Positions 10,271 through 16,440 of a stretch of 64,000 nucleotides of DNA are shown here, piece by piece. Source of the stretch: Syntrophotalea acetylenivorans (GTDB lineage: Bacteria; Desulfobacterota; Desulfuromonadia; Desulfuromonadales; Syntrophotaleaceae). The stretch spans positions 1,550,001 to 1,614,000 of the forward strand of contig NZ_CP015519.1 in the NCBI RefSeq assembly GCF_001887775.1, in the 5' to 3' direction. How positions within the stretch are numbered: the first letter of the stretch is position 1; each line of letters opens with the position of its first letter. The position numbers were made by a program, and so were the translations under genes. A model generated the notes under the pieces. That model saw only the letters and a list, made by a program, of their open reading frames with translations. It did not search any database and was not told where the DNA came from.

Positions 10271-10759
10271 ATGCGCATTCTGGGAATCGACCCCGGCTCA
10301 CGAATCACCGGCTACGGCATTATTGAAAAGCGCGGAAACCGGCTGTTGCATATCGACAACGGTGCTATTACGACCCGCAGCAGCGACGAGTTGGCCAACC
10401 GGCTGAAAGTGATCTACCGGGATCTTGAACAGGTGATTACCGAATACGCTCCCAACGCGGTCGCTATCGAACAAATTTTTGTAGCCAAAAATGCCCAGTC
10501 GGCTCTCAAGCTGGGCCATGCCCGGGGCGCCGCTATGTTGGCCGGGGTCAATGCCAACCTCACGGTGGCCGAATACACCGCCATCGAAGTCAAAAATGCG
10601 GTGGTCGGCTATGGTCGGGCCGAAAAACGACAGGTTCAACAGATGGTCCGCATGCTGCTCAATCTGCCGGAGATCGCCCAGGAAGATGCTTCGGATGCTC
10701 TGGCCGTCGCGATCTGCCACGCGCACAGCGCTCGGATAACCCAACTCAAGCGCTCTTAA
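10271..10759 (+). CDS. ruvC: Holliday junction resolvase RuvC
   Basis: Crossover junction endodeoxyribonuclease, 162 residues, which cuts Holliday junctions in recombination and repair. The acidic catalytic residues are visible in [14 protein letters not shown] (Asp7), [11 protein letters not shown] (Glu), and the C-terminal [13 protein letters not shown] (two Asp). [16 protein letters not shown] is the family's conserved helix. Length matches the family (160-175). It is followed at 25 nt by ruvA, giving the common ruvC-ruvA-ruvB order. Confidence 0.96.
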
Positions 10760-10784
10760 CCCATATATCCCCCTGGAGTCTATC

Positions 10785-11378
10785 TTGATCGCCCTGCTCA
10801 GCGGCAACATCGTTCATAAATCGGTCAACCAGATCATCGTCGACGTCAACGGCGTCGGCTATCGGCTGCTGATCCCCCTCTCCTCTTTCTATTCTTTGCC
10901 GGAAGAGGGCGCCGTACGGCTCCATGTACACACCCATGTGCGGGAAGATGCTATTTCGCTGTTCGGGTTTCTGACTCTGGAAGAAAAAGAGATGTTCGTC
11001 CTGCTACTGACCATCTCAGGGGTCGGTCCCAAGCTGGCTCTCAACATTCTGTCCAATATTCCCGTTAACGATTTGAAGTGCGCCCTGACCCAGGGGAATA
11101 TCAAGCAGCTCTCAAGCCTGCCGGGAATCGGTAAAAAGACCGCCGAGCGACTGGTATTGGAGTTGAAGGAAAAGATTCCCCAAGGCACATTTGAACCAGC
11201 TGCGGCTGGAACCCCGGCCACAATGGCCGGCGACCAACGGGAAGATGCCTTGTCAGCGCTGGTCAATCTCGGCTACAAAGAAAACCTGTCCAAAAAAGCT
11301 CTCGACAATCTGGAAATCCCCCCAGAGGCCTCTCTGGAAGAGACTCTCAAAGCGGCTTTGAAGATTCTGATGCGCTGA
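10785..11378 (+). CDS. ruvA: Holliday junction branch migration protein RuvA
   Basis: RuvA, 197 residues, the tetrameric junction-binding partner of RuvB. The OB-fold N terminus starts [13 protein letters not shown], and the double helix-hairpin-helix region carries [16 protein letters not shown] and [20 protein letters not shown] flexible linker leads to the C-terminal RuvB-binding domain with [13 protein letters not shown]. Translation starts at TTG (10785) with RBS ctggag upstream; no better ATG exists in the conserved N terminus. Confidence 0.95.
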
Positions 11379-11464: not shown

Positions 11465-12484
11465 ATGAGCGAGCGACTGATCAGCGGCGAACTCGGTGAA
11501 GACGACCGTTTCGAAGCCTCGCTGCGGCCGCGCACCCTCAAGGAATATATCGGCCAGATAAAAGCCAAGGACAACCTGCAGGTCTTTATCGATGCGGCCC
11601 GCGCTCGCCAGGAGACCCTGGACCACGTTCTTTTCTTCGGTCCTCCGGGCCTCGGAAAAACCACCTTGGCCAACATCATCGCCAGCGAAATGGGCGTGAG
11701 CATCAAAAGCACCTCCGGACCGGTGATTGAAAAACCGGGCGACCTGGCAGCTATTCTGACCAACCTTGAAGAAGGCGACGTCCTGTTTATCGACGAAATC
11801 CATCGTCTGTCGCCGGTGGTAGAAGAAATACTCTATCCGGCCATGGAGGATTATCAGCTCGATATCATCATCGGCCAGGGTCCTTCGGCCCGCACCATCA
11901 AGCTCGATATTCCCCGCTTCACTCTGGTCGGCGCCACCACCCGAGCGGGCCTGCTTTCTTCGCCGCTGCGCGACCGTTTTGGCGTCATCTGTCGCCTGGA
12001 GTTCTATACCGCCGAGGACCTGGCTACCATCGTTCGCCGCAGCGCCGGTATCCTTGGTGTGCCGGTGGCCCAAAACGGCGAAATGGAAGTCGCCCGGCGT
12101 AGCCGGGGCACCCCCCGTATCGCCAACCGCCTGTTACGCCGGGTACGGGATTTCGCCGAGGTTAAAGGCGACGGTACGATCACGCGCGAGATCGCCGACA
12201 TGTCTCTGAACCGGCTGGAGGTTGATGGCTGCGGCCTCGATCAAATGGACCGGCTGATTCTGCTGACGATCATCGACAAGTTTGGCGGTGGCCCGGTTGG
12301 AGTCGAAACCCTGGCAGCGGCAGTCGGTGAGGAGAAAGACACCATCGAGGATGTCATCGAACCCTATCTCCTGCAGCAGGGTTACCTCAACCGCACACCT
12401 CGCGGCCGTACTGCCACCGACCTCGCCTATCGTCACTTGCAACGTCTGCCTCAAGATGCCGACAACGGCGAGCTTTTTTCTTAA
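11465..12484 (+). CDS. ruvB: Holliday junction branch migration helicase RuvB
   Basis: AAA+ motor of the RuvAB branch-migration complex, 339 residues. Motifs in order are the N-terminal [12 protein letters not shown], Walker [12 protein letters not shown], Walker [10 protein letters not shown], sensor 1 LVGATTRAG, arginine finger region SPLRDRFGV, sensor 2 [18 protein letters not shown] and the C-terminal winged helix ending in RTPRGRTAT. Strong RBS (aaggaggg). An 86-nt gap separates it from ruvA. The next gene, of unknown function, starts 24 nt after its stop. Confidence 0.97.
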
Positions 12485-12508: not shown

Positions 12509-14881
12509 ATGGTTCCTGCAAACCCAGCATCCATTGATCCCGACACCCTGCACCAGCTTACCGACCAGCTGAGTCACTGGGCTGAAAGTCTCATCAGCCG
12601 AGGCCGTACGCCTCTGCGCAAGGTCGAGACCTTTCCGTCCCTGTTGACCGCCATTGGTGAGCTGCGCCCCCCCCTGCTGTTCTGGATTAATCGTGACAGC
12701 TGCATGGCTGGGGGAGTCGTACTTTTCCCGGGGGAAAACGATACAGCAGCAATGGAAATGGGCCACTACTGCGCTCAAGCCCTGGGACTGCGCTATTTCA
12801 TCACCTGGACCCGAAACGAAGTCTCCTTTTGGGACGATGAATCCCCTCCTCGCCTGCGAAAACAGTTGCCTCTGACTAAAGGGGCCAAAGCCAACGCCCG
12901 CGATTTCCAAGAAGTCCTGCAGCTTCTTCTGGAGGAGATCAAACTGCTGGCGGTACTCGCCGCGGTGCCGCCACCGGAACTTTCGGCCTGTTATCTGGCC
13001 AACATGTGGCGCACCACCTTGCTGGCAGCGGAACCCCTGTTAAATGAACATTACCGTATCGCCCGCAGCGAAGAGCGTCTGACCAAGGGTGACGTTCCGG
13101 GGCAATTGGCCATCGGCAAGGGGTTCCTTACCTTTGTCCGGTTGCTGGCTCTGAGTCACTATGATTTGCTGCCCACCGAGATCCAACCCCATCTATTAGA
13201 AGAAGAGATTCGCCGCGTCCTGCCGATCTTACCTCCCGGCCTACGGCAATCTCTGGCCATGAGCGATACGGAACTGGCGCTTCCGGAACCGGTCGCGGTT
13301 CGCTACCACCTATTGTTTCGTCGCCTGACACAGTTGCGACCAGCCAGCGATCTGCAGCGCTGTTGCCAGGCCTTAGACCTGTTGCTGGAGCAGGAGCACC
13401 GGCGACTGGGTGGTTACGCCCCACCCTGTCCGGTCCCGGCCACGGCCGCAACCTTGTTGCTTAATCCGGACCGCGCATACAAAACCGTTGCGCCAGCCCT
13501 GGAATTTGCTTCGGCACCCTTGTTGGCCGGGCTGGCTCTACAGCGCAACCTATGCGGTCACCCGGCCATCGACCAGACCGTATCTCTCTGGCAAGCCCCG
13601 GAGGGCTTTGTTCCCAGCCATATCAGCGGCACTCTGGTCGATCAACGGCTACCGTCCCCCGAACGGCGTAATCATTTTCTGGCCCTGTTGCGTCGATCCT
13701 GGCCTAACCGCCGCTTTCGCCTGCCGGTGGCTACACCGACCTGGACCTGGCACCTGCTGCACCTGTTGGGCCTGGCCGCCGCCGGTGCGACCATCGAACT
13801 GCGCCTGCCAAGCGGCTGGTTGGCCAGCAACTACGGCCTGACCGTTCTGGAACTGATTCAAAAACAATTCACCCTGGAACAACTCTCTGCCGAGACGGAC
13901 GAAGAAATCATCCTGCGCATCAAAAAATCGATAGATGATGACTGCATGACGTTCATGACCCATGGCGACAGCACGCGCTCAGTTGAATGGAGATGGTTGA
14001 ATTCCCGGCATCCGGCCCTGTTGTCCCTGGCTCTGCACCTGCCCGATCCGCTGCTCAGCTTGCTGCAGAACGGTTCGCTCTGCCTGCCGGAGGAGCAAAC
14101 CTGGCCGGAACATCATACCGAAGCGATCTTCGCTTTTACCCGTTCAACTCTCGGTCAGGCCTTTTGGCAATTGCTCGGCGACGGCCGCCCTTTGCCCCGC
14201 CGAACTTTATTGCAAAAAGAAGTGCTGCGCACCGGCTTACCCCTGCCGCCCTCCAAGGTTCTGGACCAATTACAAAGAACCATGGACGGCGAAACATCGG
14301 AAACCACTCGTCAGCGTGCCTACGAACGGGAACTGGCCCTCTGGCTGGGCAGCGATCTTTCTTCCCTCGCCGCTGGTCCCTGGGCCGAAGGCTACGAAAC
14401 CATCGCGGCCAGAGCTGTTAATACCGACCCTAAGGAGTTGACAGAGACAATCACCCAGGAAGTCTTTGTGGATGGAATTCCGGTTTTTCCCGACCACTAT
14501 CTTTACGACTATTACCGGCCGGAACTTCGTGATTACACTTTCACTCCGCCACTAAACCGTGGCTCTGAATTTTTCGGTCGTGTCGAATTGATTGATAAAC
14601 AGCAGCGCCGGTTGGAGGTCGAAGGCCTGGATGCTGCCCGTGCCCTGCTGCTCTGCGCCGCGGCCGGCAAGACTTCCATCGGCCTGCCAGTCGAAGGTCA
14701 GATTATTTCAGCCATCGTCCAACGTTATCTGACAGATTTGCAGAACCTGCACCAGGCTCTATTGCGTTGCTGCCATCGCCATTGCGCTGACCCTCAGAAA
14801 GCTGAAACCCTTACCAAAACGATCTGGGCCGACCAGCCCTTACCTTCCTGGGACTGCATTCTAGAGCTGTCGCGCCTCTAG
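12509..14881 (+). CDS. Large protein of unknown function downstream of ruvB
   Basis: I do not recognise this 790-residue protein. It has no signal peptide and no clear membrane segment, and is rich in Leu, Pro and Arg. Residues 45-110 (PPLLFWINRDSC, GGVVLFPGE, then ALGLRYFITWTRNEVSFWD) faintly resemble the N-terminal nuclease-like fold of type I restriction R subunits, where a similar strand reads out a name-and-value pattern. This is a weak visual impression, not a domain call. No Walker, zinc or SAM-binding motif is evident. It begins 24 nt after ruvB, so co-transcription with ruvCAB is likely, suggesting a DNA-related role. The gene has normal coding character throughout and no frameshift. 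Confidence 0.75.
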   Translation: MVPANPASIDPDTLHQLTDQLSHWAESLISRGRTPLRKVETFPSLLTAIGELRPPLLFWINRDSCMAGGVVLFPGENDTAAMEMGHYCAQALGLRYFITWTRNEVSFWDDESPPRLRKQLPLTKGAKANARDFQEVLQLLLEEIKLLAVLAAVPPPELSACYLANMWRTTLLAAEPLLNEHYRIARSEERLTKGDVPGQLAIGKGFLTFVRLLALSHYDLLPTEIQPHLLEEEIRRVLPILPPGLRQSLAMSDTELALPEPVAVRYHLLFRRLTQLRPASDLQRCCQALDLLLEQEHRRLGGYAPPCPVPATAATLLLNPDRAYKTVAPALEFASAPLLAGLALQRNLCGHPAIDQTVSLWQAPEGFVPSHISGTLVDQRLPSPERRNHFLALLRRSWPNRRFRLPVATPTWTWHLLHLLGLAAAGATIELRLPSGWLASNYGLTVLELIQKQFTLEQLSAETDEEIILRIKKSIDDDCMTFMTHGDSTRSVEWRWLNSRHPALLSLALHLPDPLLSLLQNGSLCLPEEQTWPEHHTEAIFAFTRSTLGQAFWQLLGDGRPLPRRTLLQKEVLRTGLPLPPSKVLDQLQRTMDGETSETTRQRAYERELALWLGSDLSSLAAGPWAEGYETIAARAVNTDPKELTETITQEVFVDGIPVFPDHYLYDYYRPELRDYTFTPPLNRGSEFFGRVELIDKQQRRLEVEGLDAARALLLCAAAGKTSIGLPVEGQIISAIVQRYLTDLQNLHQALLRCCHRHCADPQKAETLTKTIWADQPLPSWDCILELSRL

Positions 14882-15117
14882 GGCCCTGTCGGACACTACC
14901 GGCCCAAGGGAAAATTCGGCTGATAGAGAACGGATTTCAGCTCATTTGAAGATTCATAGCTGAAGCTATGGGCCAATCGGCCGAGCTTGCAGCTGGCTCA
15001 TGGATGGTCTGCCAGCCCCTTGAAAGTTCAAAACCTTGTCAGACCTTTCTTTGCCCGTATAATTAGCAACAACACTCTTTCGGTTCTGCCTTCCCTGCTG
15101 TTCACACGAGGCGTTCC
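14882..15117. other. Intergenic region before the patatin gene
   Basis: 236 nt without a gene. It contains a small inverted repeat catagct-ga-agctatg near 14956-14972 and several GC-rich half-palindromes (gggccctg, cggccgag), but no clear terminator with a T tail. A promoter for the patatin gene must lie here; no box stands out. Confidence 0.4.
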
Positions 15118-16074
15118 ATGGATACAGTGAAAACCACCATTGGCCTGGCACTCGGCAGCGGCGCCGCCCGAGGCCTGGCGCACATCGGCGTGCTGAAGGT
15201 ACTTGAAGAAGCCGCCATCCCCATCGCCTGTATCGCCGGGACCTCCATCGGTGCATTTATTGGCGCACTCTACGCTGCCGGCGTCCCGGTTCAACAGATG
15301 GAGAAGACCCTTTGCGAACTCAACTGGCGAGCCCTGGCCCGCCTTCTCTCTCCTGCCCTGCCCACCTCGGGCCTGTTGGACGGTGGCAAAGTCGTCGAGT
15401 TTATGGCCGAGCTGTTGCCGGTTCAAACATTTGAAGAGCTTTCCATTCCTCTGGCAGTAACGGCCACCGATATCGAATCGGGGGAAGCCCTGGTTATACA
15501 CCAAGGCAGCCTCTTAGAAGGACTGCACGCCGCGACAGCCTTTCCCGGCATTTTTACGCCCGTACCTTGGAACGGCCGTTTTTTGGTCGACGGCGGCTTA
15601 TGTAATCCGGTGCCGGCTAACGTAGCCTACCGCATGGGTGCCCAACGAGTGATCGGCGTCAGCGCGATCCCTACGCTGACAGGACCTCAATCAACAGGTC
15701 TGCAGACACCTTTCATCAAGCCGCGCAAGCCGCACAATACCCTTCGAAGATTCTTTACCAGCGCCCAACTCGAGAACCTGTTTCACGATATTTGGCAGAA
15801 CAACCGTCAACCACAGAGTTCGGCCGCCGCACAGTCACAAAAACGTCCCCAACAACGGTCGCCCGGTATTTTCAGGGTCTGTTCCCGCAGTGTCGCCATC
15901 ATGGAAAACCAGATCAATGATCTGCGCCTCGAGAAAGAAGCCATCGATCTGCTGGTTCGGCCCATCTTTGACGACATCAGCCTGCTTGACTTTCACCGAG
16001 CCAAAGAGTCCATTAAGGCCGGCGAAATCGCTACCCTCCGGTTACTACCAAAAATTCGCCAGCTGTTAGAATAA
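15118..16074 (+). CDS. Patatin-like phospholipase family protein
   Basis: Patatin/RssA-type serine acyl hydrolase, 318 residues. The oxyanion glycine loop is GSGAARGLAHIG (13-24), the nucleophile elbow is GTSIG with Ser43, and the catalytic Asp158 lies in the DGG motif (LVDGGLCNPVPA), so the Ser-Asp dyad is complete. No signal peptide is present, so it likely acts on lipids from the cytoplasm. Beyond residue 200 a basic, Gln-rich linker (QNNRQPQSSAAAQSQKRPQQ) precedes a C-terminal helix. It precedes a phasin-like and an ABC1-kinase gene, a lipid-flavoured group. Start supported by gagg 9 nt upstream. Confidence 0.9.
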   Translation: MDTVKTTIGLALGSGAARGLAHIGVLKVLEEAAIPIACIAGTSIGAFIGALYAAGVPVQQMEKTLCELNWRALARLLSPALPTSGLLDGGKVVEFMAELLPVQTFEELSIPLAVTATDIESGEALVIHQGSLLEGLHAATAFPGIFTPVPWNGRFLVDGGLCNPVPANVAYRMGAQRVIGVSAIPTLTGPQSTGLQTPFIKPRKPHNTLRRFFTSAQLENLFHDIWQNNRQPQSSAAAQSQKRPQQRSPGIFRVCSRSVAIMENQINDLRLEKEAIDLLVRPIFDDISLLDFHRAKESIKAGEIATLRLLPKIRQLLE

Positions 16075-16146
16075 TTTTGCAGCAACAGCCCTCTGTGTTA
16101 TTATTGAAAGTACCTAGAATCATTGCTGATCTATAGGAGAACAAGC

Positions 16147-16440
16147 ATGAATGATCTCATTGAAAAAACCCTGATGGCCGGTATTGGAGCCCTGGCTCTG
16201 AGTCAAAAAAAAGCTGAAGAACTGGTGGGGGAATTGCAACGCCAGTTTAACCTCAGCGAAGAAAAGGGGCAGGAATTGTTGGACAAAATCAAGGAGACCG
16301 TGAGTGGCCAACAGCAACGACTGGAGGAAGTCGCTCGAGAGGAGCTGCAAAAATCGGTGACTCGTTTCGGTCTGGTAAACAGGGAAGAATTCGATCAACT
16401 GGTCCAACGGATTGAAGAAATGGAAAAACGCCTGAAGTAA
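16147..16440 (+). CDS. Phasin-family (polyhydroxyalkanoate granule-like) protein
   Basis: Small helical protein of 97 residues. The frame can extend upstream, but ATG 16147 has an ataggag RBS at the right distance. The N terminus (MNDLIEKTLMAGIGALALSQ) has a short hydrophobic Ala/Gly helix, followed by a heptad-rich, highly charged coiled coil to the C terminus (EEMEKRLK). This is the layout of phasin-like proteins placed next to UbiB/ABC1 genes in Desulfuromonadales. Whether it coats PHA granules is unproven, since no PHA synthase is visible. It lies 37 nt before the ABC1 kinase and is likely co-transcribed. Confidence 0.72.
   Translation: MNDLIEKTLMAGIGALALSQKKAEELVGELQRQFNLSEEKGQELLDKIKETVSGQQQRLEEVAREELQKSVTRFGLVNREEFDQLVQRIEEMEKRLK

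Follow-up and report, generated by a model that had tools for sequence, protein, structure and literature searches.

Results

The X790 gene and its neighbors in the window

The window, i.e., the whole stretch of 64,000 nucleotides from Syntrophotalea acetylenivorans that was analyzed, contains an open reading frame which starts with ATG at position 12509, ends with its stop codon at 14881 and encodes a protein of 790 amino acids, called X790 here. It lies on the same strand as the ruvC, ruvA and ruvB genes:

10271..11378, + strand: ruvC (10271-10759) and ruvA (10785-11378), both upstream of ruvB (ORF list)
11465..12484, + strand: ruvB, directly upstream of the X790 gene (ORF list; matched at the same place in other genomes)
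12509..14881, + strand: X790 gene, for a 790-residue pseudo-restriction-modification protein (ORF, translation, conserved family, model)
15036..15063, + strand: promoter-like site (11/12) before the patatin-like gene at 15118-16074 (consensus match only)

Between the end of ruvB (12484) and the start of X790 there are 24 nt, in agreement with the tight spacing behind ruvCAB pointed out in a preliminary description of this DNA. Since the patatin-like gene that follows has a good promoter-like site in front of it, the ruv transcription unit probably ends with X790, as judged from the sequence. Joint expression of X790 with RuvC, RuvA and RuvB is probable in S. acetylenivorans. The names AarF, LpxC, GlpX, patatin and histidine kinase, used for genes of this neighborhood, are presumed from the sequences themselves and not taken from a family search, and the gene called QueH downstream of X790 is likewise presumed to be one. 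The patatin-like gene and AarF are separated by a small conserved gene (window 16123-16440, h16123 in the following), which matched the phasin family (PF05597, E 4.4e-8).

Occurrence of the family and selection

X790 belongs to a single-copy family and was found in 49 of 58 close relatives and in 3 of 198 genomes of a phylum-wide sample, all three belonging to one order and one being the source genome itself. A profile of the 43-row family alignment A1, to the rows of which all counts given as n/43 refer, found it in 122 of 277 genomes of the class, with the matches listed all coming from Desulfuromonadales. No genome outside this order was matched in any of the three sets. The gene is thus lineage-specific, as had been proposed, in the sense of being confined to one order. 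By our own count, 14 Desulfuromonadales genomes had no X790 match. For seven of them RuvB was not found either, so the ruv locus is probably missing from these assemblies; the other seven, three of genus g5 and four of family f6, keep ruvB. X790 is a vertically inherited gene of almost the whole order. One contig titled as a Chloroflexi MAG (L100) carried a ruvA-ruvB-X790-QueH-AarF-LpxC block of the Desulfuromonadales type and was probably wrongly binned.

Comparisons with three relatives gave dN/dS values of 0.13, 0.14 and 0.26 for X790, the third pair having a high dS, next to 0.03-0.04 for RuvB and 0.13-0.16 in two pairs for the patatin-like gene. Conservation in close relatives together with this purifying selection indicates that the coding frame, described as normal beforehand, is genuine, and the same values mark X790 as constrained but fast-evolving. 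Its mean protein distance of 1.47 was the highest of eight genes (38 of 47 loci). In a Mantel test of rate covariation, from which phylogeny was not removed, X790 and RuvC showed the highest partial correlation of 28 gene pairs (r 0.51), the values for YebC, LpxC, RuvA and RuvB being 0.345, 0.26, 0.23 and 0.22, respectively.

Gene neighborhood across relatives

Synteny was compared on 70 contigs with X790, obtained from a scan of 84,980 species genomes. RuvB lay upstream on the same strand in 70/70, and no X790 copy away from ruvB was found among these contigs, in line with the expectation that homologs always follow ruvB. A GGDEF-type gene, often accompanied by a small lipoprotein-like gene, separated the two in 13/70 loci (tblastn). 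For the 57 loci with no GGDEF match in between, the distance between the aligned ends of ruvB and X790 was 15-512 nt, and at most 75 nt in 39 of them. Wherever there was enough flank, YebC, RuvC and RuvA were present upstream (52/52 loci), while LpxC (51/51), AarF (50/51), h16123 (50/51), QueH (36/51) and patatin (23/51) were found downstream. The linkage of ruv and X790 is perfect, yet the linkage to genes of quite other kinds is nearly as strong.

The genes between ruvB and AarF are variable, with GGDEF, lipoprotein, QueH and patatin genes coming and going. Three of the f6 genomes show the order ruvB-GGDEF-h16123-AarF and the fourth has ruvB adjoining LpxC, X790 being absent from all four. 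In genus g5, the h16123-AarF-LpxC part is separated from ruvB in two of three genomes and AarF was not found in the third; X790 is gone, and the regions scanned showed no clear remnant of it. In other orders of the class, ruvB is followed in several genomes by an ATPase gene (DnaA/Hda-like AAA by eye; L160, L162, L164, L168), and in L162 this gene is followed by QueH, AarF and the histidine kinase, with X790 absent. Some of these four loci contain a further gene of ~440 amino acids with TPEEIEL near its start.

The intergenic insert found elsewhere between ruvB and X790 (L033:3215-4546, L035:3388-4704 and equivalents) encodes a HAMP-GGDEF membrane protein, in which GGDDY replaces GGDEF in six of seven copies printed and GGDYY in the seventh. 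It is often followed by a small lipoprotein-like coiled-coil gene, and both are missing from the ruvB-X790 gap of the window.

Fold and domain layout

Searches of the whole protein against Pfam, NCBIfam and PDB sequences yielded no match at E-values up to 10, Pfam scans of the separate domains gave none, and the A1 profile matched no PDB sequence. Scans of all 43 family members returned only scattered matches at chance level; a PADLOC match to PD-T7-3 (E 0.051) and an NCBIfam match to TraF in one member (E 1.6e-4) were isolated and set aside.

An AlphaFold2 model built from A1 reached a pLDDT of 88.7 and a pTM of 0.80. Its top PDB match in Foldseek was the type IIG enzyme BpuSI (3s1s, E 1.9e-10), followed by DrdV and type I M subunits, and the best matches in a viral library were methyltransferases and restriction-modification proteins. 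VIA-align superimposed residues 300-617 on CamA (Z 15.9, rmsd 4.9, 292 aligned), 162-513 on the methyltransferase 7eew (Z 15.6, rmsd 3.5, 305 aligned), 161-515 on the type I M protein 2okc (Z 14.8, rmsd 3.5, 315 aligned) and 8-629 on BpuSI (Z 14.4, 426 aligned), the last with an rmsd of 13.7 and shifted domains. These Z values of 14-16 clearly exceed the best Z of 7 to 8 which the tool gives as usual when a model has no clear match. The following layout was derived:

12530..12973, + strand: residues 8-155, PD-(D/E)XK-like nuclease fold without catalytic residues (hhalign 95.1%; alpha-beta-beta-beta-alpha-beta core by DSSP)
12683..12706, + strand: residues 59-66, family-specific W-I-N-R-x-S loop beside the former nuclease site (alignment)
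12974..13408, + strand: residues 156-300, helical connector resembling the helices at the N-terminus of type I M subunits (VIA)
13409..13990, + strand: residues 301-494, gamma-class N6-adenine methyltransferase fold lacking SAM motif I and NPPY (VIA Z 14.5-15.9 against CamA, BseCI and TaqI)
13463..13468, + strand: residues 319-320 (NP), probably what remains of the motif I DP, with the G-x-G loop lost (P in 30/43; equivalence by eye)
13634..13654, + strand: residues 376-382, expected place of NPPY after the strand 371-375 (alignment columns; placed by eye from the secondary structure of the model)
13991..14413, + strand: residues 495-635, helical and dispensable, at the position of a target-recognition domain (model, alignment)
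14414..14878, + strand: residues 636-790, C-terminal domain (pLDDT 94.9; hhalign 95.7%)

The matches to 2okc, 3lkd and 3ufb all begin at X790 residues 153-161. Residues 495-635 are mostly helical in the model, partly covered by the CamA and TaqI alignments and shrunk to fewer than 70 residues in 7/43 members.

Distant relatives with a nuclease-methyltransferase architecture

A profile of the C-terminal part (A2) gave a full-span match (E 4.3e-8) in a 1177-residue frame of genome G483, which belongs to another family of the same phylum. The corresponding protein, L253 (1174 residues), has the same domain architecture as X790, carries DPSCGTG and NFPY, matches N6_Mtase and Eco57I of Pfam and is also matched by type IIG, MTase_II and MAD2 models. 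BLASTP of X790 against L253 produced collinear pieces at the C-terminus (E 1e-4), at an N-terminal FxTWxxxxxxW motif (0.078) and in the methyltransferase (0.11). Using L253 as query, three more proteins of 1,223-1,231 residues were found (L262, L263 and L264), and a widened C-terminal profile (A5) led to a further one of 1,158 residues (L291).

Alignment of A1 with these five relatives by hhalign gave 90.2% for columns 18-470 against 22-589 (E 1.5e-6) and 82.5% for the C-terminal part (columns 585-786 against 957-1195), the E-values being rough because the five-protein profile is thin (Neff about 2.2). Taken separately, the N-terminal domain reached 95.1% and the C-terminal domain 95.7%, and the methyltransferase part gave 17.5% at the expected place; 30 column shuffles per domain profile gave 0.7-1.5% at best. 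In a run with four proteins, 20 shuffles per profile stayed at or below 1.0% and reversed profiles at or below 1.2%. Since L253 and L291 were found through the C-terminus, the N-terminal match counts as partly independent evidence. Against 20 ordinary gamma-class methyltransferase segments from relatives, A1 yielded 0.1% in hhalign and, in hmmsearch, scores comparable to the shuffled and reversed controls, the signal coming only from the distant relatives reached via the C-terminal domain. Because of this and of the 17.5% for the part alone, the methyltransferase assignment rests on predicted fold plus collinearity. The earlier statement that no known domain is present is superseded, fold and distant sequence relatives having been found for nearly the whole protein by Foldseek, VIA and hhalign, and the faint resemblance of residues 45-110 to the nuclease-like fold of type I restriction subunits proved correct at fold and profile level.

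Catalytic residues missing from both sites, and family-specific conservation

When residues 53-74 of X790 are placed ungapped on the nuclease motif of L263 (RRD...GEVK), in a register set by eye where hhalign puts a gap in the loop, the nuclease D is kept in 6/43 rows and the E and the K in none (0/43 each). Beside this site, the WINRxS loop is strongly conserved, with W59, N61 and S64 in 42/43 rows and R62 in 40/43. The SAM motif I pattern (DPxCGSG type) occurs in 0/43 rows, and the model has no helix between the strands 315-318 and 330-333. NPPY is found at the motif IV columns in no row of 43, the sole match to [NDS]PP[YFWH] (1/43) lying outside the motif IV columns printed. After strand 4 follows an LRxSWPxRRF segment, in which W398 is invariant and R395, P399, R401 and R402 are nearly so; it would sit at the former base-flipping face of the methyltransferase-like core. 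All domains of X790 have a neutral to negative net charge, which does not favor unspecific DNA binding.

Occurrence of the C-terminal domain in other proteins

Modeled alone, the C-terminal 155 residues reached a pLDDT of 94.9. Comparison with PDB folds stayed at chance level and gave no fold match, the best Foldseek E being 0.41 and the best VIA Z 4.8, the latter with ribosome recycling factor (rmsd 4.7, 97 aligned). Searches and the alignment A5 define a family of ~150 residues with a GxxxFPxxxL start and LP and YxxxL motifs, to which X790 conforms. At one locus of G483 (L274, L253 and L275; about 1,034,000-1,050,500) the domain is present in three genes, encoding L253, a protein of 274 residues and another of 321 residues in which it is fused to PC4. 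WYL, ARPP-1, PLD, BrxD-like ATPase and HerA/mad8-like neighbors make this a defence-like locus. A free-standing copy of ~136 residues was found in G540 (L290). Because it travels with nucleic-acid-related defence-like proteins, the domain may perhaps serve as an assembly module. Weak matches in G153, G081 and G079 belonged to unrelated-looking proteins by eye and were dropped. Searches of the two small proteins with this domain against plasmids and of L253 against viral contigs yielded no match. Next to the genes for the domain, L275:2720-3901 matches NsnA (E 1.1e-58) and PD-T4-2_A models.

Discussion

X790 is probably related to a restriction-modification enzyme of the one-chain type, with vertical inheritance and with both active sites lost. 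This interpretation builds on what was computed for the family, namely its domain order, the lack of catalytic residues (43/43), its confinement to a single order, purifying selection and the fixed place behind ruvB. The ancestral enzyme would have combined a PD-(D/E)XK nuclease, a gamma-class N6-adenine methyltransferase, a specificity region and the special C-terminal domain. We infer that X790 is most likely a binding protein with no catalytic function. A scaffold for a partner protein or a nucleic acid would be formed by three parts, namely the nuclease-like domain (WINRxS loop), the methyltransferase-like core (LRxSWPxRRF) and the C-terminal domain. Loss of the known motifs may leave room for a different activity at the WINRxS or SWPxRRF sites.

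As for the process served by such a scaffold, a house-keeping role unrelated to RuvABC is quite conceivable, if short of probable. The position of X790 would then be due to the old and stable block yebC-ruvCAB-...-AarF-LpxC, in agreement with the occurrence of a related block in another order that lacks X790 (ruvB, ATPase gene, queH, AarF and histidine kinase in L162), with the coming and going of genes between ruvB and AarF and with the neutral-to-acidic nature of the protein. Two points speak against it, namely gaps that in many genomes are short enough to suggest a common transcript with ruvB, and the covariation of rates with RuvC. Such a role, merely sharing the operon, is nevertheless somewhat more likely than a partnership with RuvABC at Holliday junctions.

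In that second explanation, X790 would be an accessory factor of Holliday-junction processing, binding branched or nicked DNA or one of RuvC, RuvA and RuvB and thereby steering branch migration or resolution in this order. The invariable place of RuvB upstream on the same strand (70/70), the small distance in most loci with no GGDEF match in between (39/57), the lack of any X790 locus away from ruvB, the disappearance of X790 where the block broke in genus g5 and the top rank of the X790-RuvC pair in rate covariation all agree with it. However, h16123, AarF and LpxC are equally tightly linked, rate covariation also reaches 0.345 for YebC, not itself a Ruv protein, and 0.26 for LpxC, a GGDEF gene intervenes in 13 loci, and family f6 keeps ruvCAB without X790, with seven genomes in all having ruvB but not X790. 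Moreover, the same argument from neighborhood has been used before. The tRNA-modification enzyme QueH belongs to DUF208, and both yebC and DUF208/queH occur in the neighborhood of X790 in many relatives. A comparative genomics study of 2012 tied YebC and DUF208 to RuvABC (PMC3403352), and YebC has since been shown to act as a translation factor (PMC12234827). Because of the fixed unrelated neighbors, the GGDEF insertions, the losses and this precedent, we regard a direct role with RuvABC as rather unlikely. The fuller scenario, in which the ancestor of the order captured a restriction-modification enzyme behind ruvB that lost both sites and then became a fixed RuvABC partner, i.e., a pseudo-enzyme recombination factor, is a little more doubtful still.

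A continuing role of X790 in defence or anti-defence, e.g., as a decoy or sensor for DNA-mimicking phage anti-restriction proteins, is improbable. The C-terminal domain does occur in three neighboring genes of a defence-like locus (HerA, WYL, PLD, ATPase), and solved structural relatives bind the DNA mimic Ocr according to their structure titles, but a single-copy, order-wide gene in a house-keeping locus under purifying selection is not what would be expected of such a protein, and tblastn found no phage record with an X790 relative. Least probable is a new enzymatic activity of X790 at its WINRxS and SWPxRRF sites. Both former catalytic domains do contain polar and aromatic residues that are near-invariant, but no known catalytic motif is present, and the conserved set consists mostly of aromatic residues, proline and arginine, as would be expected for binding.

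Restriction-modification genes are usually mobile and quickly lost. In contrast, the doubly inactivated relative described here is inherited vertically through nearly an entire order, is subject to purifying selection and always lies behind ruvB. If confirmed, X790 as a binding protein would provide a clear bacterial case of a defence enzyme retained for binding alone, and it shows the extent of restriction-enzyme erosion that is compatible with continued selection. It also defines a C-terminal domain with no PDB fold match found, which recurs in other proteins of a defence-like locus, and makes X790 a candidate lineage-specific recombination factor. Judged from sequence and model, X790 is a real, unannotated, order-wide pseudo-enzyme of the restriction-modification type, and its proposed mechanism is binding or scaffolding.

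Comparison with known systems

A search of the open-access literature (dead restriction enzymes; ruvB-yebC-Desulfuromonadales) found no paper on the X790 gene. Among the systems it can be compared with, BREX PglX/BrxX and type I M subunits share a helical N-terminal part and a gamma-class methyltransferase core with X790 (VIA Z 12-15), but X790 lacks their motifs and has no BREX or hsd genes at its locus. A connection to MADS exists through L253, which is matched by the MAD2 models of PADLOC (E 1e-27) and NCBIfam (54.9 bits, far below the 720-bit cut-off) and has a neighbor that matches mad8 (HerA-like MAD8). X790 itself has no mad match, and its neighbors are of the ruv, AarF and LpxC type and not mad1-mad8.

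Type IIG restriction-modification enzymes are described as combining DNA cleavage and a gamma-class methylation domain in one chain (PMC4081073). X790 likewise contains both domains in one chain, as folds only and with profile support, and resembles BpuSI (3s1s) in the order of N-terminal nuclease fold, helical connector, gamma-class methyltransferase fold and C-terminal part. Unlike type IIG enzymes, it is without the nuclease E and K, SAM motif I and NPPY in all 43 members, its specificity region is apparently shrunk or absent, and it is a chromosomal single-copy gene of one order.

L253, L262, L263, L264 and L291, from the same phylum and 1,158-1,231 residues in length, differ from X790 in keeping NPPY or NFPY, in being about 370-440 residues longer and in not lying next to ruvB in the stretches seen. 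A D...ExK-like nuclease motif is kept, by eye, in L262, L263 and L291, whereas the variant of L264 ends in R and L253 is without the motif. It is with these five proteins that X790 shares a nearly full-length hhalign alignment, which includes the C-terminal domain.
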